A DNA stretch of 64,000 nucleotides from Dactylosporangium siamense (GTDB taxonomy: Bacteria; Actinomycetota; Actinomycetes; Mycobacteriales; Micromonosporaceae). Location: NCBI RefSeq assembly GCF_016862795.1, contig NZ_BONQ01000017.1, forward strand, positions 186,001 through 250,000, in the 5' to 3' direction. Below the pieces are notes generated by a model, which searched no databases, was not told where the DNA came from, and saw only the letters and a list, made by a program, of their open reading frames with translations. A program made the translations under genes and the position numbers. Of the stretch, positions 7,135-46,693 are shown piece after piece; positions within the stretch are counted from its first letter, which is position 1; each line of letters opens with the position of its first letter.

Positions 7135-10100
7135 GTGCAGGTCACGCCGCTGTCCGGCAGGCTCTGGGTCAGTGTGCTCGGGGACACGACCGCGACCGTT
7201 GACGGCGCGTTCGTCGACCTGGGCGGGCGGCGCCAGCGGGCCGTGCTCGCGGTGCTCGTGCTCCACCGGGGTGACGTCGTGCCCACCGACCGGCTGATCG
7301 ACTGCGTCTGGGGCGACCGGCCACCGGCGAACGCCGCCGGGGCGCTGCAGGCGTACGTGTCGCACCTGCGCCGCAGGCTGGAGCCCGGCGCGACGGCACG
7401 GGCGCGTGGCAACGTGATCGCGTCGCGACCGCCCGGATACGCGCTGACGCTGGACACGGAGGCCGTCGACGCGTGGCGCTTCGACCGGTCCATCACCGCG
7501 GCGCTCGGCACCGGCGACCACGGCGCACAGCGGGACCTGCTCGAGGCGGCGCTGCGGCTGTGGCAGGGACCGGCCTACGCGGAGTACGCCGACGAGCCGT
7601 GGGCGCAGGCCGAGGTGGCGCGCCTCGCCGAGCTGCGCGAGGTCGCCCGGGAGCAGCTGCTCGCGGCCCGGCTCGCGCTGGGCGACAGCGCGCTGCTGGT
7701 GCCCGAGCTGGAGCAGCTGGTCGCCGAGGAACCACTGCGGGAGCAGCGCTGGCGGTTGCTGGTCCTGGCCCTGTACCGGGCGCACCGGCAGGGTGACGCC
7801 CTGGGTGCGCTGCGGCGGGCCCGGCAGACGCTGTCCGAGCAGCTCGGCGTCGATCCGGGGCCGGCGCTGCGGGCGCTGGAGGCCGAGGTTCTGGCCCAGG
7901 CCGAGACCCTGGACGCGCCACCGCGGCCGGGGGCCGCCGGCACAGCTGGGCCGGACGCCCGGGAAGGCGCGCCGCAGCGTCCGGGTGCGCGGGAGGACGG
8001 TGCTCCGGGAGAGCACCACGAGGCAGCGGATCGCACCTCCAGGGGAAACTCCTCGCCGGAGGCGGCGACCGGTCCGGGCCGGAACGTGCCGTCGGAGGGA
8101 TTGCCGGTACCCCCGCGAAAAACGACGGACGAGCACCTGGTGGATCGCGACCAGGAGGTGGCGGACCTGCGGCTCGCGGCCGGCGACGCGTTCGGTGGGG
8201 TGCCGAGACTGGCGATGATCGAGGGGCCGGCCGGGATCGGCAAGAGCCGGCTGCTGACCGAGGCGCGGCGGATCGCGGACGGTCACGGGGCGGTGACGCT
8301 CACCGCGCGGGGCAGCCAGCTGGAGAAGGAGTTCGGCTTCGGCGTGGTGCGGCAGCTGTTCGAGGCGCTGCTCACCGACCCGGTGGCGCGGGAACGGCTC
8401 CTGGCCGGCGCCGCCGCGTCGGCCGCGTCCGTGTTCGACATCGGGCTCGCCGCGGGTGAGCACTCCGAGCGGGGCGATCACACGTTCGCGGCGCTGCACG
8501 GGCTCTACTGGCTGACCGCGAACGTCGCCGCGACGCGCCCCCTGACCATCGTGGTGGACGACCTGCAGTGGTGCGACACGGGTTCGCTGCGGTTCCTGGC
8601 GTACCTGGTGCGCCGGCTCGACGGGCTGCCGGTGCTGCTCGTGGCGACGCTGCGCACCGGTGAGCAGTACGACGACGACGCGCTGATCTCGGAGCTGCAG
8701 CTCGACCCGGCGACCACCCCGGTGCGGCCCGGTCCGTTGAGCGCCGCCGGCGTCGCCGACCTCGTGCGGGAGCGGCTCGGCGACGAGGCCGAACCCCGGT
8801 TCGTCGCCGCGTGCCACCGGACCACGTCCGGCAACCCGCTGCTGCTGCGGCAGCTGCTGCGGGCCCTGGAGACCAACGACGTCCGGCCCACCGACGCGCA
8901 CGCCGGCACGGTGACCGCGATCGGCTCGCGGGCCGTGTCCAGCATGGTCCTCATCCGGCTGCGGCGGATGCCGGCGGCGAGCACCGCCGTCGCCCGGGCG
9001 ATCGCGGTCCTCGGCGACGGTGCGGGCCTGCCCACGATCGCGGCCCTCGCCGGTGTCGACGAGCCGGCCGCGGCGGCGGCGGTCGCCGCCCTCGCGCGGG
9101 CCGAGGTGGTGCGGCACGAGTACCCGGTCGGGTTCGTCCACCCGCTCGTGCGCGACGCGGTCTACCAGGACCTGCCGCCCGGCGAGCGGCAGCTGCACCA
9201 CGAGCGGGCGGCCCGGGTCCTCAGCGGGCTGTCGGCGGCGCCGGAGCAGGTCGCCGCGCACCTGCTGCAGATGCCCGAACGCGCCGACCAGTGGGTCGTC
9301 GACGTGCTGCGGGCCGCGGCCGACACGGCGCTGCACCGCGGCGCGCCCGACGGTGCCGCCGCCTACCTGCGCCGCGCCCTGGCCGAGCCGCCCGTGCCGC
9401 AGCAGCGACCGGCGGTGCTGCTGCAGCTGGGGCAGGTCGAGACGCTCAACGACGGCCCGGCGGCGATCGCGCACCTGCGGGCCGCGTACGACGATCCGGT
9501 CACCGACCCGGCGACGTTCGCGGCGGTGTCCCGGATGCTCATCCACACGCTGATCTTCACCGGGCCCGAGGGCAACGCGCCGGAGTTCGCGCGCCGGGCG
9601 TCGGCGCGCCTGGACGCGTCGTTCACCGACGAGCGGCAGGGCATGCAGGCCCTGGAGCGCATCGCCGGGTACATGTACAGCGGCGCCCCCGACGCGTTCC
9701 CGGCGGACACCCCGGAGGTCTCCGGCGACGGGCTCGGCGCCCGGATGCTCGCCGTGTGCCACGCCTGGCAGGCCTTCGTCAACGGCGAGCGGCGCGGCGA
9801 GGCGGTGCGGCTGGCCCGCTTCGCCCTGGCCGACGGGATCCTGCTGCGCGGCGATCCCGGGCTCTTCTGGGTCATCGCGGGCGTGGTGCTCGAGGAGGCC
9901 GACGAGGACGCCGGCACGCTGTGGGACGACGGGCTGAAGCTCGGGCACACCCGCGGGTCGCTGTTCACCGTCCTCGCCGCGCACCTGTGGCGCGGGTGGC
10001 GGGAATGGCAGCGGGGTGACCTGCCGGAGGCGTGCACGTCCCTCGTCGCCGCCAACGAGCAGAGCCTGCGCTGGGGTGGCGTGCCCGCGATCGGCATCTC

Positions 10101-29221: not shown

Positions 29222-30336
29222 CAGACCTGATCAACGTGGCGATCGTCGGCAGCGGCATCATCGGCGGCAACCACGCCGACGCCATCCTGCGCCATCCCCG
29301 TCTGCGGATCGTGGCCCTCGTCGACGCCGTCGACGCCGCCAACGCCGCCCTCGCCGCCCGCATCGACCCGCCCCCCTCCTGCCACCGCACGCTCGGCGAC
29401 GCCCTGGCCGCGGAGCAGGTCGACCTCGTCGCCATCTGCACCCCCAGCGGGCTGCACGTCGAGGCCGCCGAGGAGACGCTGCGGGCCGGCGCGCACCTCC
29501 TCGTCGAGAAGCCCCTCGACGTGTCGCTGCCGAAGGCCCGCGCGTTCGCCAAGGTCGCCGCCGAGGCGGAGCACCGGGGGCTCGTCTGCGCCGTGGTCAG
29601 CCAGCACCGGTTCGACCCGGCGATGGTCGCCGTGCAGCGGGCGGTGCGCGAGGGCCGCCTCGGCCGGCTCACGTCCGCGGTCGTGTCCATGCCGTGGTGG
29701 CGCGACCAGGCGTACTACGACTCCGCCGACTGGCGCGGCACCTGGGAGTTCGACGGCGGCGGCGCCGTGGCCAACCAGGGCATCCACCTCGTCGACCAGA
29801 TGCTCGCCCTGCTCGGCCCGCCGGTCGAGGTCACCGCCCGCACCGCCCGCATCGCCCACGACCGGATCGAGGTCGAGGACCTCGCCGTGGCCACGCTCCG
29901 CTTCGCCGGCGGCGCCCTCGCCGTCCTGCACGCCAGCACCAGCGCCCACCCCGGGCTGCCGGTGCGGCTCCAGGTGCACGGCACCCGCGGATCCGCCGTC
30001 CTGCACGACGACCAGCTGGAGTACTTCTCGTCGGCCGGCTCCGAGGAGACAGCCACGGACCTCGTCGGCCCCGAGCACATCTCCGGCGCGCCGAAACCCG
30101 CCGACGGCTTCGTGCTCGGGCACCTGCGCCAGTACCAGGACCTCGTCGAGGCCATCGACGAGCGGCGCCCACCGGGCGTGCGGGTCGCCGACGGCCTCCT
30201 CGCCCTCGCCACGGTGCGGGCCGTCTACGTGGCGGCCACCCTCGGCCGTCCGGTGCTGTTCGACCAGGTCCTCGACGGGGTGCACGACGACGTGCGCCCC
30301 GCGGTGACCGACGTGATCAAGGAGGAGCAGGCGTGA
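29218..30336 (+). CDS. Gfo/Idh/MocA family oxidoreductase
   Basis: A 372-residue NAD(P)-dependent sugar dehydrogenase. The N-terminal Rossmann motif is VAIVGSGIIGGNHADAI; EKPLDVSLPKARAF carries the conserved EKP, and GGGAVANQGIHLVDQM holds the catalytic-region His. It probably oxidises the sugar imported by the operon's ABC transporter, such as an inositol or hexose derivative. It is coupled by ATGA upstream and GTGA downstream. Confidence 0.88.
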   Translation: MTDLINVAIVGSGIIGGNHADAILRHPRLRIVALVDAVDAANAALAARIDPPPSCHRTLGDALAAEQVDLVAICTPSGLHVEAAEETLRAGAHLLVEKPLDVSLPKARAFAKVAAEAEHRGLVCAVVSQHRFDPAMVAVQRAVREGRLGRLTSAVVSMPWWRDQAYYDSADWRGTWEFDGGGAVANQGIHLVDQMLALLGPPVEVTARTARIAHDRIEVEDLAVATLRFAGGALAVLHASTSAHPGLPVRLQVHGTRGSAVLHDDQLEYFSSAGSEETATDLVGPEHISGAPKPADGFVLGHLRQYQDLVEAIDERRPPGVRVADGLLALATVRAVYVAATLGRPVLFDQVLDGVHDDVRPAVTDVIKEEQA

Positions 30337-35076: not shown

Positions 35077-35146
35077 CGATCACGGCCGCGCGATCACGGC
35101 CGCGCGATCACGGCGGCGCGATGACGGCGGCGCGATCACGGCCGGG
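35077..35146. repeat. Five tandem copies of a 14-bp unit (CGATCACGGCCGCG)
   Basis: Five back-to-back 14-mers with few substitutions span this interval (CGATCACGGCCGCG twice, then CGATCACGGCGGCG, CGATGACGGCGGCG and CGATCACGGCCGGG). Two more copies appear at about 35695-35722, next to the other end of the inverted repeat. Each unit contains CGATC and GGCCG mini-palindromes. Confidence 0.85.
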
Positions 35147-35692: not shown

Positions 35693-35759
35693 TCACGGCC
35701 GCGCGATCACGGCCGCGCGATGTGGCAGGGGCCTACGCGGCGAAGATCCCAGCCCCCAC

Positions 35760-40365: not shown

Positions 40366-41225
40366 TGGCCGACGTCTTCGCCGACCAGGCCGTCGCGGCC
40401 ATGGTCGCGGCATCCCGCGAACCCCAACTGGCCGTGAGCGTCGCCGAGCTGCGCCGGGGCGGGAAGGCGCGCGCCGCGCTGCGCCCGCCGGGCCCGGCGA
40501 TGCCCGTCGAGGACCGCACCGTGGGCGGCGTCGGGGTCCGCGTGTACCACCAGAGCGGCGACGCGGTCATCGTCTTCGCCCATGGCGGCGGCTTCGTGCT
40601 GGGCGATCTCGAGACGCACGACGCGTTCGTCCGCAGGCTCGCCCACGCGACCGGCCGGACCGTCGTCGCCGTTGACTACCGGCGGGCGCCGGAGGACCCG
40701 TTCCCGGCCGCGGTCGACGACGTCCTCACCGTCCTGGACGCGCAGACCGCCGCGAGGGTGGCCGTGGCCGGGGACTCCGCCGGTGGGTTCCTCGTCGTCC
40801 AGGCCGCCCTGGTCCGGCGGGAGCGGATCGACGCGCAGCTGCTCGTCTGCCCGCTGATCGACGTCACCCTGCCGGCCGCGACCCAGCCGAGCGTCGCGGA
40901 GAAGGGCACCGGCTACACCCTGGACGTCGCGCAGCTGCGCGAGTGGATCGGCTGGTGGGCGCCGGAGAAGGCACCGGATCCGCTGGCCGAGGACCTCACG
41001 GGCATGCCGCCGGCCCTGGTCGCCGTCGCCGAACACGACCCGCTGCGCGACGGCGGCAGCCAGTACGCGCAACGGCTCACCGCGGCCGGTGTGCCGGTCG
41101 TACACCGGACCGCGGTGGGACACGTGCACAACTTCGCCCAGTCCGTCCACGTGTCAACCGCCTGCGCCGAAGTTGACGCTCAGTGGCTGCGTGACGCTGC
41201 CCAGTTACTTTCCGGGTCGGGCTGA
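40365..41225 (+). CDS. Alpha/beta hydrolase, HSL-like esterase
   Basis: A 286-residue serine hydrolase of the hormone-sensitive lipase group. The oxyanion-hole motif HGGGF is near residue 71, the nucleophile motif GDSAGG near 141, an Asp in AEHDPLRDGG and the catalytic His in VGHVHNF. It hydrolyses esters of short acyl chains. The start overlaps the stop of the PCD-VOC gene (TGATG). The natural substrate cannot be inferred. Confidence 0.88.
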   Translation: MADVFADQAVAAMVAASREPQLAVSVAELRRGGKARAALRPPGPAMPVEDRTVGGVGVRVYHQSGDAVIVFAHGGGFVLGDLETHDAFVRRLAHATGRTVVAVDYRRAPEDPFPAAVDDVLTVLDAQTAARVAVAGDSAGGFLVVQAALVRRERIDAQLLVCPLIDVTLPAATQPSVAEKGTGYTLDVAQLREWIGWWAPEKAPDPLAEDLTGMPPALVAVAEHDPLRDGGSQYAQRLTAAGVPVVHRTAVGHVHNFAQSVHVSTACAEVDAQWLRDAAQLLSGSG

Positions 41226-41303
41226 GACACCAGTGGCGGAGGCGGTGCAGACTGGGTGCCGGCGTCCCCGACCGGACGTCTGACGATCGGCAGGGGGCGC
41301 GAA

Positions 41304-42401
41304 GTGGGACTGTGGGACAGGATCCAGGGCGAGTTCGTCGACATCATCGAGTGGCTCGACGACAGCCGGGACACCATCGTCTGGCGGTTCCCCCGCTTCC
41401 AGAACGAGATCAAGATGGGCGCGCAGCTCATCGTGCGCGAGTCGCAGACCGCCGTGTTCGTCAACGAGGGGCAGGTCGCCGACGTCTTCAAGCCCGGCAC
41501 CCACACGCTGACGACGCAGAACCTGCCGATCCTGTCGACGTTGAAGGGCTGGAAGTACGGGTTCGAGTCGCCGTGGAAGGCGGAGGTCTACTTCGTCAAC
41601 ACCCGCCAGTTCACCGACCTCAAGTGGGGCACCCAGAACCCGGTCATGCTCCGCGACGCCGAGTTCGGCATGGTGCGGCTGCGTGCGTTCGGCGCATACG
41701 CGCTGCAGGTCACCGAACCGGACAAGCTGCTGCGCGAGCTGGTCGGCACCGACCCGCAGTTCCGCACCGAGGAGGTCTCGGAGTTCGTCCGGCAGCTCAT
41801 CGTCGGGCACCTCGGCAGCGCCCTGGCGACCGCGCAGGTGCCGGTCCTGGACCTCGCCGCACGGCAGCTGGAGATCGGCCAGCGGCTCGCGGGCGTCCTC
41901 ACGAGCGAGCTCACCGGGTATGGCATCCAGATCCCGAAGTTCGTCATCGAGAACATCTCGGTGCCGCCGGAGGTCGAGGAGGCCATCGACAAGCGCACCT
42001 CGATGGGGGTCGTCGGCAACCTGGACAACTACACGAGGTTCCAGACGGCGAACGCGATCGAGGACGCCGCGAACAACTCCGGCGGCGCGGGCGAGGCGTT
42101 CGGGTTCGGTCTCGGCATGGCGGCCGGACAGCGGATGACGAACGCCGCGACCCAGGGCGCCCCGCCGTCCGGTGGCCCGCCGCCGTTGCCCCAGCAGGAT
42201 CAGTGGTTCGCCGGCATCGGCGGCGCCCAGCAGGGGCCGTATGACCTGGCCGGGCTCGGCGCGCAGATCCGGGGCGGCACCGTCACCCGTGAGACGCTCG
42301 TGTGGCACAACGGCATGGCGCAGTGGACCCCGGCGGGTCAGGTGCCGGAGCTCGGCGCCCTGTTCGCCGCCGTCCCCCCGCCGCTGCCCCCGCAGGCGTA
42401 G
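41304..42401 (+). CDS. SPFH-domain protein with C-terminal GYF_2 domain (YdjI-like)
   Basis: A 365-residue protein. The SPFH (stomatin/prohibitin) domain covers about 25-245: IVWRFPRFQNEIKMGAQLIV, RESQTAVFVNEGQ and VLTSELTGYGIQIPKFVIEN. A Gly/Pro linker leads to a GYF_2 domain (WFAGIGGAQQGPYDLAGLGA to TLVWHNGMAQWTPA). This is the COG4260 'virion core protein' type related to Bacillus YdjI. It forms membrane-associated scaffolds. It is 7 bp upstream of the zinc-ribbon gene. GTG 41304 follows AGGGGG. Confidence 0.85.
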   Translation: MGLWDRIQGEFVDIIEWLDDSRDTIVWRFPRFQNEIKMGAQLIVRESQTAVFVNEGQVADVFKPGTHTLTTQNLPILSTLKGWKYGFESPWKAEVYFVNTRQFTDLKWGTQNPVMLRDAEFGMVRLRAFGAYALQVTEPDKLLRELVGTDPQFRTEEVSEFVRQLIVGHLGSALATAQVPVLDLAARQLEIGQRLAGVLTSELTGYGIQIPKFVIENISVPPEVEEAIDKRTSMGVVGNLDNYTRFQTANAIEDAANNSGGAGEAFGFGLGMAAGQRMTNAATQGAPPSGGPPPLPQQDQWFAGIGGAQQGPYDLAGLGAQIRGGTVTRETLVWHNGMAQWTPAGQVPELGALFAAVPPPLPPQA

Positions 42402-42408
42402 CCCGCCG

Positions 42409-43476
42409 ATGCGGCAGTATCCGTGCGCCGGCTGCGGCGCCACCGTCGAGTTCGCCCCGGGCACCAACGCGCTGCGCTGCCCGTACTGCGGACACACCAC
42501 CGTCATCGAACGGCAGCCGGACCGCGTCGTGCGCGAACACGACTGGGCCGAGTTCGCGGCGCTGCCCCGCAAGCCGATCGCGTTGCTGGCCGCCAACGTC
42601 TACGTGTGCGGTGGCTGCGGCGCGCAGACGGAGAGCGACACCGTCTCCGACCGCTGCCGGTTCTGCGGCGCCGCCGTCGTCGCCCAGGTCGACCCCGTCG
42701 ACCAGGTGGTCCCGGAGGCGGTGCTGCCGTTCACCGTCGACCGTCCGGCGCTGCGCGCCGCCCTCGGCGCCTGGGCCGCGTCGCGCTGGTTCGCGCCGTC
42801 GGGCCTGAAGAAGGTCAGCGAGGCCGAGTCGGCGAAGAGCACGTATCTGCCGCACTGGACCTACGACAGCCGCACCGTGTCGCAGTACCAGGGGCAGCGC
42901 GGCGACCACTACTGGGACACCGAGACGTACCAGGCCAACGGCGAGACCCGCACCCGGCAGGTCCGGCGGACCCGGTGGCGCGGCGCGTCCGGCACCGTCG
43001 CCAGCGACTTCGACGACGTGCTCGTCACCGGCACCACGAAGGTCACCCGGGAGCACCTCGACGCCCTCGAGCCGTGGCCGCTGACCGACGCCGCGCCGTT
43101 CCGCCCCGACTACCTCGCCGGGCACGAGACGCTGCGCTACGACGTCGAGCCGGAGCAGGCCCTCGACGCCGCGAAGGCGCTCATGGCGGTGGTCATCGAG
43201 GAGGAATGCCGCGCCGACATCGGCGGCGACGAGCAGCGCGTCGAACACGTCGACACGACCTACGCCGACCTGACGTTCAAGCTGATGCTGCTGCCGGTGT
43301 GGCTGGCCTGCTACGTGTACGCCGGGAGGACCTACAACATCCAGGTCAACGGCCGCACCGGCGAGGTGGCCGGCGAACGGCCCTACAGCGTGCCGAAGAT
43401 CGCCGCGGCGGTCACGGGCGGCGTCCTGCTGGTCGCCCTCGTCGTGTTCCTCATCTGGCGCGGGCGGCAGCCGTGA
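42409..43476 (+). CDS. Double zinc-ribbon protein with C-terminal transmembrane anchor
   Basis: A 355-residue protein. Two zinc ribbons lie in the first 90 residues: CAGC..CPYC and CGGC..CRFC. A mostly beta central region with THW/TYDSRT follows, and one transmembrane segment at the very end (ITAAAVTGG-like VLLVALVVFLIWRG). The N-terminal part is thus cytoplasmic. It forms a pair with the SPFH-GYF gene, as YdjG/YdjI do in Bacillus. The stop overlaps a GTG (GTGA) that opens the mini-ORF chain. Confidence 0.8.
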   Translation: MRQYPCAGCGATVEFAPGTNALRCPYCGHTTVIERQPDRVVREHDWAEFAALPRKPIALLAANVYVCGGCGAQTESDTVSDRCRFCGAAVVAQVDPVDQVVPEAVLPFTVDRPALRAALGAWAASRWFAPSGLKKVSEAESAKSTYLPHWTYDSRTVSQYQGQRGDHYWDTETYQANGETRTRQVRRTRWRGASGTVASDFDDVLVTGTTKVTREHLDALEPWPLTDAAPFRPDYLAGHETLRYDVEPEQALDAAKALMAVVIEEECRADIGGDEQRVEHVDTTYADLTFKLMLLPVWLACYVYAGRTYNIQVNGRTGEVAGERPYSVPKIAAAVTGGVLLVALVVFLIWRGRQP

Positions 43477-43624
43477 CCGGCGCGCTCCGGCACGAGCGGG
43501 CGTCGGCGGTCCTCACCGTGTTCCTCGTCTGGTGCGGGCGGCAGCGGTGACCGGCGCGGTCCGGCACGAGCGGGCGTCGGCGGTCCTCACCGTGTTCCTC
43601 GTCTGGTGCGGGCGGCAGCGGTGA
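43462..43624 (+). repeat. 74-bp tandem triplication of the gene junction, making two coupled 25-codon mini-ORFs
   Basis: Copies begin at 43462, 43536 and 43610 (GGGCGGCAG). Each unit carries the zinc-ribbon gene's 3' tail and the kinase-like gene's 5' end. Within it, GTG at 43473 opens a 25-codon frame ending TGA 43548-43550. GTG 43547 opens a second 25-codon frame ending TGA 43622-43624, and GTG 43621 starts the next real gene. Every step keeps the GTGA overlap because 74 = 25x3-1. The peptides VTGALRHERASAVLT..GRQR are probably by-products of the duplication. Confidence 0.85.
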
Positions 43625-44589
43625 CCCGCGCGCTCCGGCATGAGCGGGTGTCGGCGGCCCTCACCCTGCTCAGCGACGCCGGTGTGGCCGCGCTGCTCGA
43701 CGAGCACGCCCGGCCCGACGCGGTCGGCATCGGCGGGCACACCGCGACCCTGTCGGTGGCCGGTTCGCCGGTGTTCATCAAGCAGGTCCCGGTCACCGCC
43801 CTGGACCTGCAGCACCCGCACTCGACCGCGAACCTGTTCGGCCTGCCCATGTACTGCCAGTACGGGGTCGGCTCGACCGGCTTCGGCGCGTGGCGTGAGC
43901 TCGCCGCGCACCGGATCACGACCGGCTGGGTCCTCGCCGGGCGGCACGCCGCGTTCCCGATCCTGCACCACTGGCGGGTCCTGCCCGCGGGGTTCGCGTG
44001 GCAGCCCGTCGACATCGAGGAGCGGGTGGCGTACTGGGGCGGCGCGCCGTCCGTGCGGCACCGGCTGACGCAGCTCCAGGACGCGCCGGCGCGGCTCGTG
44101 CTGTTCCTCGAGCACCTCCCGCGGACCGTGCACGACCTGCTGCGGGCCGACCCGTCCGCCGCCGGCCGGGTCGACGCGCGGCTGCGGGACGCGATCGCGT
44201 TCATGAACGCCGCCGGGCTGTGGCACTTCGACGGGCACTTCAACAACGTCCTCACCGACGGCGATCAGGTGTACTTCGCCGACTACGGGCTCGCCCTGCA
44301 CGAGGGGTTCGACCTGACCGCTCCGGAGCGCGCGTGGCTGCGCGAACACGTCGACTACGACCTGCGGTACACGACCGGGCACCTGGCGACCTGGCTCGCC
44401 GAGGAGTTCCGTGGACCGTCGTCACGGGCGGCGGTGTTACGCGGCGAGGCGCCGTTCCTCGGGCCCGCCGTGGCGGCGGAGCTCGTCCGCCGCTACGGGG
44501 AGCGGGCCCTGGTGACGGACGCCTTCTTCGACGCGCTCGTCACCGGGGCGAAGACGACGCCCTACCCGTCCTGTCCGGGGAGCTTGTAG
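43621..44589 (+). CDS. Protein kinase-like fold phosphotransferase
   Basis: A 322-residue protein with a kinase-type catalytic loop: HFDGHFNNVL (H-x-D-x4-N) near residue 203, followed by FADYGLAL in place of DFG. The N-terminal ATP-binding half has VFIKQVPVTALDL. No Gly-rich loop of classical Ser/Thr kinases is seen, so aminoglycoside-phosphotransferase-like or Fam20-like function is possible. It was GTGA-coupled to the zinc-ribbon gene before the 74-bp duplication. It overlaps the convergent epimerase gene by 28 nt. Confidence 0.65.
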   Translation: MTRALRHERVSAALTLLSDAGVAALLDEHARPDAVGIGGHTATLSVAGSPVFIKQVPVTALDLQHPHSTANLFGLPMYCQYGVGSTGFGAWRELAAHRITTGWVLAGRHAAFPILHHWRVLPAGFAWQPVDIEERVAYWGGAPSVRHRLTQLQDAPARLVLFLEHLPRTVHDLLRADPSAAGRVDARLRDAIAFMNAAGLWHFDGHFNNVLTDGDQVYFADYGLALHEGFDLTAPERAWLREHVDYDLRYTTGHLATWLAEEFRGPSSRAAVLRGEAPFLGPAVAAELVRRYGERALVTDAFFDALVTGAKTTPYPSCPGSL

Positions 44590-45407
44590 GCCGGCCGGAA
44601 CCCCAGGAGCCGTTCGACGGCACCGGTGTCGATCGGCACCCGGCGGCCGGGGACCGGCGTGCGGATCGGCACACCCGGGTGGTGGGCGGCGATCAGCTCC
44701 TCGGTCGGCCGGTCGCTCAGGGTCTCCGGGGCGGCGAGGAAGACCCGGTGGAACCCGTGCAGCGGCGCCGAGGCGGCCAGCCACGCGGCCTCGGCGGCGT
44801 CCTCGACGTGCAGGTACGCCCACGAGTTCCGGGCGCCCGTCGCCGGGTCGGTGCGCACGTCCGCGGCGGCCTTCTCGAGCCTCGGCGTGTCGCCGGTGAA
44901 CGGGAACCGCAGCGCGACCACGTCCATGCCGTGCCGGCGGTGGACCATCTCGCCGGTCAGCTCGTCGACCAGCTTCGACAGCGCGTAGGGATCCTCGATC
45001 TGCGGCGGTGCCTGCTCGTCCAGGGGGTAGTACGGCGGATGGAGGTCGTGCGGCGAGAACGGCATGCCGAGCAGCGCGTAGCTGCTGGCGAGCACGGCCC
45101 GCGGCACGCCCCGGCGGGCGGCCTCGTCGAGCACCACGAACGTGGCCCGGGTGTTGCCGGCGAACACGTCGAGGGCGGTGCCGAGCGTCGGCGCCGGGAT
45201 CGCGGCCAGGTGGATGACCGCGTCGGTGTCCTCCTGGAACGCCTCGGCGACGACGTCCGGGTCGCCGGCCGAGCCGACCACGACCCTGGCGTGCTCGAAC
45301 GTGGCCGGCTCCAGCGTGAGGGCGACGACCTCGACGCCCTGCCGGCGCAGGCGGGCCACGACGGCCCGCCCGATGTTGCCGCCGGCGCCGGTGACGACGA
45401 CCCTCAC
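44562..45407 (-). CDS. NAD(P)-dependent epimerase/dehydratase (extended SDR)
   Basis: A 281-residue extended SDR. The cofactor motif VVVTGAGGNIGRAVVARL opens the protein; SSYALLGMP and YALSKLVDE give the Ser and Tyr-x3-Lys region. Such enzymes oxidise or epimerise sugars and sugar acids. GTG 45407 overlaps the stop of the enolase-superfamily gene (GTGA), so the two form an operon and probably act in the same sugar-acid pathway. Confidence 0.82.
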   Translation of the reverse strand: MRVVVTGAGGNIGRAVVARLRRQGVEVVALTLEPATFEHARVVVGSAGDPDVVAEAFQEDTDAVIHLAAIPAPTLGTALDVFAGNTRATFVVLDEAARRGVPRAVLASSYALLGMPFSPHDLHPPYYPLDEQAPPQIEDPYALSKLVDELTGEMVHRRHGMDVVALRFPFTGDTPRLEKAAADVRTDPATGARNSWAYLHVEDAAEAAWLAASAPLHGFHRVFLAAPETLSDRPTEELIAAHHPGVPIRTPVPGRRVPIDTGAVERLLGFRPAYKLPGQDG

Positions 45408-46693
45408 GGTGCTTCCAGGGCGCCGTCGGGGCGGCGCACGACGGCGGCCCACCGGTCGAACAGGAACTTCGTCGGCGGATACTTCGCCGCCTCCACCTCG
45501 TCCACGTCGACGCCCCAGCCGGGCCGCTCCGACGGGTACATGTACCCCTTGACCACGTCGGGGCAGCCGGGGAACACCTCGTGGGTGGCCTCGTTGTACT
45601 CGTGCGACTCCTGGAACCCGAACGCGTGGCTGGAGATGTCGACGGCCAGGTTCGCCGCGACCCCGACCGGCGACACGTCGGCGGGGGAGTGGAACGCGGT
45701 CCGCACGCCGCACAGCTCGGCGAGCGCGGCCAGCTTCCGCGTCGGGGTGAGCCCGCCGACCGCCGAGGTGTGCAACCGGATCAGGTCGACCCCTCCGTCG
45801 CGGATGAGCCGCGCCGCGTCCGCGACCGAGCTGATCTGCTCACCGACCGCGAGGGGCACCGGCGAGGCGGCCCTGATCTCGGGCAGCCGGTCGTACAGCT
45901 CCGACGGGATCGGGTCCTCCAGGAACGACAACCCGAACGGCTCCAGGGCCCGGGCCAGGACCACCGCCTGCTTCGGGGTGAGCCGGCTGTGCACGTCGTG
46001 CATGAGGTTCACGCCCGTCCCGAGCCGCTCCCGGGCGGCCGCGAACAGCGACGGCGTGCCCCGCAGGTAGCGCTCGGGGTCCCAGCCGTCCGGGTTCGGC
46101 GAGTCCGGGTAGTGCCCGCCGGTGCCGGCCGCGCCGTAGCTGCCCAGACCCGGCTCCGCCCGTTGCAGGCGGATGCAGCGGTACCCCTGCGCGATGAGCC
46201 GCTCGGCCTCGTCGAGCACCTCGCCGGTGTCGTTGCCGGAGGCGTGCGTGTACACCTCGACCCCGCCGCGGACCCGCCCGCCGAGCAGCTCGTGCACCGG
46301 CAGGCCGGCCCGCTTCCCGGCGATGTCCCACAACGCCTGGTCCAGCCCCGACAGCGCGTTGTTGAGGACCGGCCCGTTGCGCCAGTACGACGAGTAGTGC
46401 ACGGTGCGGGTGATGTCCTCGATGTCCGCCGGGTGCCGCCCGACGGCGAGTGGGCCGACGTGCTCCTTCACCGCCGCCGCCACGGCCGCGTAGCGCTGCG
46501 TGAACGTCGCGCAGCCCAGCCCGTACAGCCCCGGCTCCGTCGTCTCGACCTTCACCACGACGAGCGGCAGGCCTTCCGGCGCGGTGACGATCGGCCGGAC
46601 CGCGGTGATCCTGAGCGCGTCACGGGCCGGCCACGGCGGGACAGACTCGGGCAGACCACCGTCAGGGCCCAGCAACTGGTTCGGGTCGTGCAC
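45404..46693 (-). CDS. Enolase-superfamily sugar acid dehydratase (mandelate racemase type, ManD/RspA-like)
   Basis: A 429-residue enzyme. Features of the ManD/RspA branch are CIRLQ, LMHDVHSRLTPKQA, LSFLEDPIP, GEQI, LHTSAVGGLTP and the HSPADVSPVG loop. Metal ligands are the Asp in MHDVHS and the Glu residues in FLEDP and GEQ. Members dehydrate aldonates such as D-mannonate or D-gluconate, or are near-inactive homologues. It is divergent from a ROK kinase, so a sugar-acid route ending in kinase phosphorylation is plausible. Confidence 0.85.
   Translation of the reverse strand: MHDPNQLLGPDGGLPESVPPWPARDALRITAVRPIVTAPEGLPLVVVKVETTEPGLYGLGCATFTQRYAAVAAAVKEHVGPLAVGRHPADIEDITRTVHYSSYWRNGPVLNNALSGLDQALWDIAGKRAGLPVHELLGGRVRGGVEVYTHASGNDTGEVLDEAERLIAQGYRCIRLQRAEPGLGSYGAAGTGGHYPDSPNPDGWDPERYLRGTPSLFAAARERLGTGVNLMHDVHSRLTPKQAVVLARALEPFGLSFLEDPIPSELYDRLPEIRAASPVPLAVGEQISSVADAARLIRDGGVDLIRLHTSAVGGLTPTRKLAALAELCGVRTAFHSPADVSPVGVAANLAVDISSHAFGFQESHEYNEATHEVFPGCPDVVKGYMYPSERPGWGVDVDEVEAAKYPPTKFLFDRWAAVVRRPDGALEAP

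Follow-up and report, generated by a model that had tools for sequence, protein, structure and literature searches.

The junction between two neighboring genes, one for a zinc-ribbon membrane protein and one for a kinase-like protein, is present three times in tandem in Dactylosporangium siamense (contig NZ_BONQ01000017.1, positions 186,001 to 250,000; this whole stretch of 64,000 nucleotides is referred to here as the window), and the question is how such an array came about, whether ribosomes can pass along it and whether it does anything for the cell. We suggest, with a probability of roughly 0.6, that it is a local duplication of the junction between codon-phased sites, which has arisen from the genes themselves and works in a manner like that of a MIRU.

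The array and its flanking genes

The initial annotation had described the junction as a 74-bp tandem triplication, and this was borne out by TRF, which found a period of 74, 3.0 copies, 93% matches and a score of 390. The span given in the initial annotation, 43462-43624, was too narrow, since the outer half-units coincide with the ends of the two genes; the array extends over 43443-43665 on the plus strand, with copies at 43444-43517, 43518-43591 and 43592-43665. Comparison of the unit with both flanking genes showed that it consists of the zinc-ribbon tail and the kinase head. When the copies were compared pairwise and in phase, no indels were found, and of the 74 bases 4 differed between copies 1 and 2, 5 between copies 2 and 3, and 7 between copies 1 and 3, giving 8 differing sites in total. 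A repeat of this kind is far beyond chance, the relay by itself less so. That it was produced by misassembly, as one might suspect in a draft genome of 296 contigs, is very improbable in view of the 8 differing sites, whose pattern fits two duplications, the shortness of the array (223 bp), and the position of the window within a 278-kb contig that is syntenic with D. aurantiacum.

The upstream gene (42409..43476, plus strand) ends at its native TGA stop codon at 43474-43476 and was assigned to a zinc-ribbon membrane protein by weak zinc-ribbon Pfam matches below the cut-off. Its last 34 codons up to the stop are the same length as in the congeners G002, G003, D. fulvum and D. roseum. It is preceded by a gene encoding SPFH/Band-7 and GYF_2 domains (41256..42401, plus strand), which is a conserved partner in the genus.

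Two mini-ORFs span the distance between the zinc-ribbon and kinase-like genes, their ends overlapping the flanking stop and start. The GTG at 43473 overlaps the zinc-ribbon TGA and opens mini-ORF 1 (43473..43550, plus strand; 25 codons and a TGA, VTGALRHERASAVLTVFLVWCGRQR*), in which 15 codons of the kinase head are followed by 10 codons of the zinc-ribbon tail. Mini-ORF 2 (43547..43624, plus strand), also of 25 codons and a TGA, differs from it by one residue and at 1 of 74 bases. Both the GTGA chain and the peptides fusing two gene ends, as originally proposed, are therefore present: the GTG codons at 43473, 43547 and 43621 each overlap the preceding TGA, and the stop/start overlap has the -4 nt spacing at all three links (zinc ribbon to mini-ORF 1, mini-ORF 1 to mini-ORF 2, and mini-ORF 2 to the kinase-like gene). 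Neither mini-ORF contains an indel or a stop despite divergence from the parent sequences. Among the differences from copy to copy, 7 of 8 affect the first or second codon position, versus 115 of 214 when the zinc-ribbon gene is compared with that of D. roseum; small as these numbers are, the differences in the mini-ORFs do not look like those of constrained coding sequence.

The kinase-like gene (43621..44589, plus strand; 322 amino acids) starts at the GTG that overlaps the TGA of mini-ORF 2, although an in-frame GTG at 43606 is an alternative start that the gene may use instead of 43621. Protein kinases are characterized by a set of motifs comprising the catalytic Lys, HxDxxxxN and DxG, and all of these residues are found in the protein encoded in the window, as expected of a protein-kinase-like fold. 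When this protein was aligned with those from 15 of the 24 homologue loci examined, K54, H202, D204, N209, D221 and G223 were invariant in all 16 sequences. The profile of this family matched protein kinases in the PDB, the best match being CDK6 (E of 1.3e-6, positions 156-239). Pkinase matches at E <=0.1 were obtained for 11 of the 16 aligned members, the window protein not being one of them, and the latter also had a weak match to Bud32, far below the cut-off. The family was found at E <=0.001 in 26 of 61 genomes of the order, including that of D. siamense, and kinase-like paralogues are located elsewhere in genomes of the genus, this one included. Downstream, the kinase-like ORF converges on a gene that resembles NAD-dependent epimerases (44562..45407, minus strand), and the 3' ends of the two overlap by 28 nt (44562-44589). 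The names that we use for the epimerase-like, enolase-superfamily-like (45404-46693), MFS, VOC and hydrolase genes are presumptive and were given from the look of the sequence.

In the genome of D. siamense the array matched one place at E <=0.001, with 40 of 390 first-look candidates scored. With a 231-bp query containing the array, 168 of 300 genomes of the family, the genome of D. siamense included, gave matches at E <=0.001 when two candidates were scored per genome. Apart from the window itself, the matches listed were short, partial and GC-rich, the longest being about 110 bases at 72%, and were rejected as reflecting base composition.

Origin and phase of the repeat

We infer that the ancestral junction was a single-copy GTGA overlap of the zinc-ribbon and kinase-like genes, with GCCCTC sites 74 bp apart. 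Such sites are found at the two ends of the array: the left microhomology is at 43435..43440 (plus strand) in the zinc-ribbon frame and the right one at 43657..43662 (plus strand) in the kinase frame, both reading as the codons GCC CTC. Their spacing is exactly 222 = 3 x 74 bp, each is codon-phased in its own gene, and the similarity is wider than the six bases, with one sequence of the pattern GCC CTC nnC nTG nTC in each gene. The first step would have been a 74-bp tandem duplication between these codon-phased similar sites, by slippage or unequal exchange. In a second step the resulting hybrid mini-ORF would have diverged and then been copied again, giving rise to the two near-identical 25-codon mini-ORFs.

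The near-identity of the mini-ORFs, taken together with the polarised sites, suggests that one mini-ORF probably existed and had diverged before it was copied, or else that the two were homogenised. Over 33 nt the tails of copies 2 and 3 show no difference, while mini-ORF 1 is separated from the native tail (copy 1) by 3 sites and from the native head (copy 3) by 4. At the site where the mini-ORFs have GTC, 4 of 6 congeners have ATC, the other two being too different there. At the two residues R/G and A/V, a remnant of the kinase-like gene in D. aurantiacum sides with the kinase copy rather than with the mini-ORFs; at a position with V in the kinase and A in the mini-ORFs, it carries the hydrophobic residue L. 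For the CAC/CAT difference, it is the kinase copy that has the derived codon, CAT, and two of the three tail sites are unpolarised. The proposed order of events depends on a few polarised sites; before polarising, a simultaneous triplication followed by later changes would take the same number of substitutions, 8.

The initial annotation had treated the relay of overlapping ORFs as something special, which our analysis did not confirm; relay geometry is the default outcome of codon-phased homology, and no special selection is needed for it. At the GTGA overlap one gene is shifted by -1 relative to the other, so that a duplication between codon-phased sites has a length of 3n-1; the hybrid ORF stays open since both of its halves are coding sequence read in their own frames. 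With a 3n-1 period the relay arises of itself, on the antisense strand as well. For the array, the antisense relay (43516..43664, minus strand) has GTGA at 43664, 43590 and 43516 and constitutes an internal control, since no gene pair is present on that strand.

How commonly such homology is available was seen at 149 RTGA junctions in the window and in 1.197 Mb of congeneric stretches from three genomes, where both ORFs had at least 150 codons and a GC3 above 0.85; being defined by ORF length and GC3 only, these junctions may include spurious ORFs, and the zinc-ribbon/kinase junction is not among them. The words shared across them were at 3n-1 offsets in 516 of 909 cases for 6-mers, 209 of 312 for 7-mers and 71 of 103 for 8-mers, and in 28 of 35 for 9-mers and 14 of 14 for 10-mers. 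The GC content of the sampled DNA is 71-73%, and words shared across junctions in such DNA are mostly codon-phased. Direct 4-nt overlaps were found in 141 of 449 sampled co-directional pairs, and chains of exactly two short (<=150 nt) ORFs linked by RTGA numbered 71 on both strands of the 1.197 Mb, with tail-sharing chains counted apart and longer chains occurring besides. A genome-wide excess of relays was not detected: among the non-direct pairs in which the first start forms an RTGA, the ratio of class 2 to class 1 offsets was 15:7 where the upstream stop was part of an RTGA and 28:15 for other stops. When tandem repeats with a period of at least 40 were collected by TRF from the sample and the window, 44 of 61 had periods divisible by 3 and 13 of 61, including the array, had 3n-1 periods.

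Several candidates were set aside during this survey. A looser count of 33 relays in 351 pairs was dropped, since some of its loci had been picked by hand and some of its ORFs were likely spurious. An equal-length chain at locus L149 contained no repeat as judged by eye, a 14-bp case at locus L122 was only 64% alike, and a 41-bp array (L122) and a 23-bp array (L125) form relays but are not clearly located at gene junctions. In the window itself, 14-bp tandem repeats (of the CGATCACGGCCGCG type) are found at 35077-35144 and 35693-35721 and are seemingly intergenic; on the minus strand these 14-bp (3n-1) repeats give 5-codon ORFs chained by GTGA (35111, 35097 and 35083).

Relatives, re-initiation and the fate of the kinase-like gene

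The SPFH-GYF gene adjoins the zinc-ribbon gene in all 6 congeners searched, and an intact kinase-like gene after the zinc ribbon was found in none of the 6 (in D. aurantiacum only about 400 nt of contig extend beyond the zinc ribbon). The single-copy junction with a direct GTGA overlap that was expected in relatives was thus not seen in these congeners, and the genomes searched included no further strain of D. siamense. D. fulvum has the same order as the window, MFS-VOC-hydrolase-SPFH-zinc ribbon, which is followed by other sequence and by a 19-residue remnant of the 3' part of the kinase-like gene before the epimerase-like gene (locus L105, about 9850-9907). Congener G003 has two kinase fragments beside the epimerase-like gene (locus L104, about 912-992 and 1018-1329), and in D. 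aurantiacum (L029/L108) the hydrolase gene is joined by a direct GTGA overlap to a kinase remnant that has lost an internal part. Insertion of the SPFH/zinc-ribbon pair between the hydrolase and kinase-like genes of the window was considered and rejected, as D. fulvum has the hydrolase-SPFH-zinc ribbon order with a kinase remnant beyond; for the same reason, D. aurantiacum has probably lost the pair from this place. With a remnant at the corresponding place in three relatives and no kinase found there in the other congeners, the kinase-like gene of this cluster looks dispensable in the genus, although it has paralogues at other places.

The loss of this gene in relatives bears on a reading that overlaps with the one that we prefer, in which the array is purely a neutral by-product: the cell needs little kinase and is in the process of losing the gene, so that the duplication was tolerated, and the mini-ORFs are inert. 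We give this close to an even chance, and since our preferred explanation leaves fitness open, the odds of the two are not exclusive. It is favored by the internally deleted, 19-residue and fragmented forms of the same-cluster kinase in D. aurantiacum, D. fulvum and G003, and by the codon positions at which the copies differ, whereas it is disfavored by the kinase ORF of the window, which is full length and has kept the conserved kinase residues, and by the mini-ORFs, which have stayed free of indels and stops though diverged from their parents.

Local duplication between codon-phased sites, as we propose it, would have left a path for ribosomes. It has been reported that termination-reinitiation needs stop/start overlaps (PMC10666635 and PMC6728339), and that for the gene pairs studied with reporters in Haloferax and E. 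coli coupling was nearly lost at a distance of about 20 nt (PMC10666635). Because of the latter result, re-initiation along the mini-ORFs, as put forward in the initial annotation, is plausible: a plain gap of 148 nt should uncouple the kinase-like gene, whereas a relay of -4 overlaps need not. Ribosomes terminating on the zinc-ribbon gene would probably re-initiate at each overlap along the stop/start chain and so reach the kinase-like gene. If a fraction r of the ribosomes gets past each step, the output of the kinase would be r cubed instead of r. No Shine-Dalgarno-like run was visible by eye before any of the three GTG starts. On this scheme the duplication would have done much less harm than a plain gap of 148 nt, and its effect on fitness may have been weak or nil.

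The further proposal that the relay tunes the ratio of the two proteins found no support, given the kinase remnants in three relatives, its not being found in the others, and differences unlike those of constrained coding sequence. A selected rheostat, in which each relay step loses some ribosomes and the copy number sets the ratio of kinase to zinc-ribbon protein, is permitted by the geometry, by a type of tandem repeat whose copy number changes easily and by copies that have stayed open. However, the same geometry is the default outcome and appears on the antisense strand too, there is no genome-wide enrichment, and the gene pair is not conserved, so that we consider such a rheostat unlikely. 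It is more improbable still that the repeats act as a promoter or another cis element for separate expression of the kinase-like gene. A precedent is the senX3-regX3 intergenic region, which contains MIRUs and has promoter activity according to PMC4213456. Against this, no sigma-70-like promoter or terminator was predicted in 43200-43800, where actinobacterial promoters are poorly covered by the prediction, RNA folding was no better than that of shuffled sequences (z of 0.47) and no Rfam matches at E <=1 were obtained in 41000-45000, all of these scans being weak for actinobacteria.

Junction duplications, a dispersed element and known systems

A junction next door has changed in a similar way. 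The enolase-superfamily-like and epimerase-like genes are joined by a single direct GTGA in the window and in D. fulvum. At the same junction, D. aurantiacum has a 29-bp (3n-1) tandem duplication that creates a 10-codon mini-ORF, MRMLVTGAAP*, made of head and tail (L108 9118-9089, minus strand), and congener G002 has an 83-nt insertion that forms an open relay of 28 codons; in congener G003 the stretch analyzed starts inside a similar insertion. These cases support the view that junction duplication is recurrent and that relays may be a tolerated outcome, and three junction events are too few to show selection. Elsewhere in the window, a mini-ORF is coupled before the gene whose product contains RFSVFTASTP... 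(30304-30333; 29 nt, 10 codons), and one is found before the same gene in D. aurantiacum (L108 12267, minus strand; 44 nt, 15 codons); their lengths differ by a multiple of 3, the relay is kept, and they share the end EEQA.

The 83-nt insertion of G002 is a member of a dispersed element with the pattern RTGAGCGGnnCGGAGCGnAGCGGAGG... (also RTGAGCGG...GGAGCGnAGCGGAGG). Allowing at most one mismatch, this pattern was found 322 times, with matches in all 7 of the 7 Dactylosporangium genomes (11 in that of D. siamense and 75 in D. aurantiacum), and only 2 matches, in 2 of 114 genomes, elsewhere in the family; a reversed control pattern had none. Loci of the element include L103 14523 (minus strand), L136, L145, L149, L155 and L187-L226. 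Forty loci were picked from the matches listed, mostly exact ones, with 20 from D. aurantiacum, 13 from D. fulvum and 7 from D. roseum. In 32 of the 40 a coding-like ORF upstream has its stop overlapped by the first RTGA of the element, and in 34 the element leads to a coding-like downstream ORF, by a relay in 23 and in frame in 11; both the upstream and the downstream connection are present in 28. Among the matches listed, tandem units in D. aurantiacum are mostly spaced by 89 nt (3n-1), with spacings of 88, 90 and 33 also seen, and those in D. fulvum and D. roseum are spaced by 84 or 30 nt (3n). Broad literature searches returned no report of an interspersed element of Dactylosporangium among the matches listed, few subscription papers being covered. 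Judged by the matches to its pattern, the element is genus-specific and MIRU-like, and it is located at RTGA junctions.

The array resembles this element in occupying an RTGA junction, and the sampled loci of D. aurantiacum form mostly 89-nt relays that are sometimes in tandem. In contrast, the element is dispersed and unrelated in sequence to the array, and in the sampled loci of D. fulvum and D. roseum the tandem units are in frame, with the last one sometimes relayed, which is unlike the array. Such elements do occur in the genus at like junctions, and insertion of one of them could in principle have produced the array. This is barely conceivable: the array has a single match place in the genome, none of the 11 places of the element pattern in this genome is on the contig of the array, and the composition of the unit, which is built from the two flanking genes, refutes the insertion for this array.

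If the array did arise by duplication of its own junction, it shows how a MIRU-like relay can be derived from the genes themselves, with an arithmetic reason for staying in register, and it provides a natural test of the passage of ribosomes over several successive stop/start overlaps. If relays work, duplications at operon junctions would be less damaging than gaps of equal length, which would help to account for the accumulation of repeats where gene ends overlap. We would go further only tentatively, with the odds rather against us: duplication of GTGA or ATGA junctions in GC-rich genomes might be self-preserving, since 3n-1 relays keep the downstream gene on line, and might be a birth route for MIRU-like repeats, the dispersed family of Dactylosporangium using the same docking rule. 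The wider outcome of this work is a proposed birth rule for relays and a genus-specific MIRU-like family.

MIRU units are about 50-100 bp in size, and the array, a tandem repeat between co-directional genes, has a 74-bp unit that falls within this range. For instance, three 77-bp units are found at the senX3-regX3 MIRU in H37Rv, and two 77-bp units and one 53-bp unit in CDC1551 (PMC4213456). The array is similar to these in having tandem units of comparable size between co-directional genes, and 77 and 53 are also 3n-1. It has also been described, in a review (PMC12548453, citing Supply et al. 1997), that MIRUs insert at start codons and that the ORF of each unit is coupled at -4 spacing, as in the array. 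However, MIRUs are dispersed at many loci, apparently mobile and foreign to their flanks, whereas the array, with its one match among the scored candidates in its own genome, is a local copy of two gene ends. It is MIRU-like in geometry and would be so in its working, yet it is not a MIRU. With termination-reinitiation coupling at ATGA or GTGA, as described in PMC6728339 and PMC10666635, the array shares the -4 overlap at all three links; it differs in that two 25-codon ORFs are interposed, and its coupling is a predicted one. Bicistronic designs and uORFs likewise couple a short ORF to the next gene (PMC12548453), but in the array the short ORFs are preceded by a complete gene and are themselves junction duplicates.
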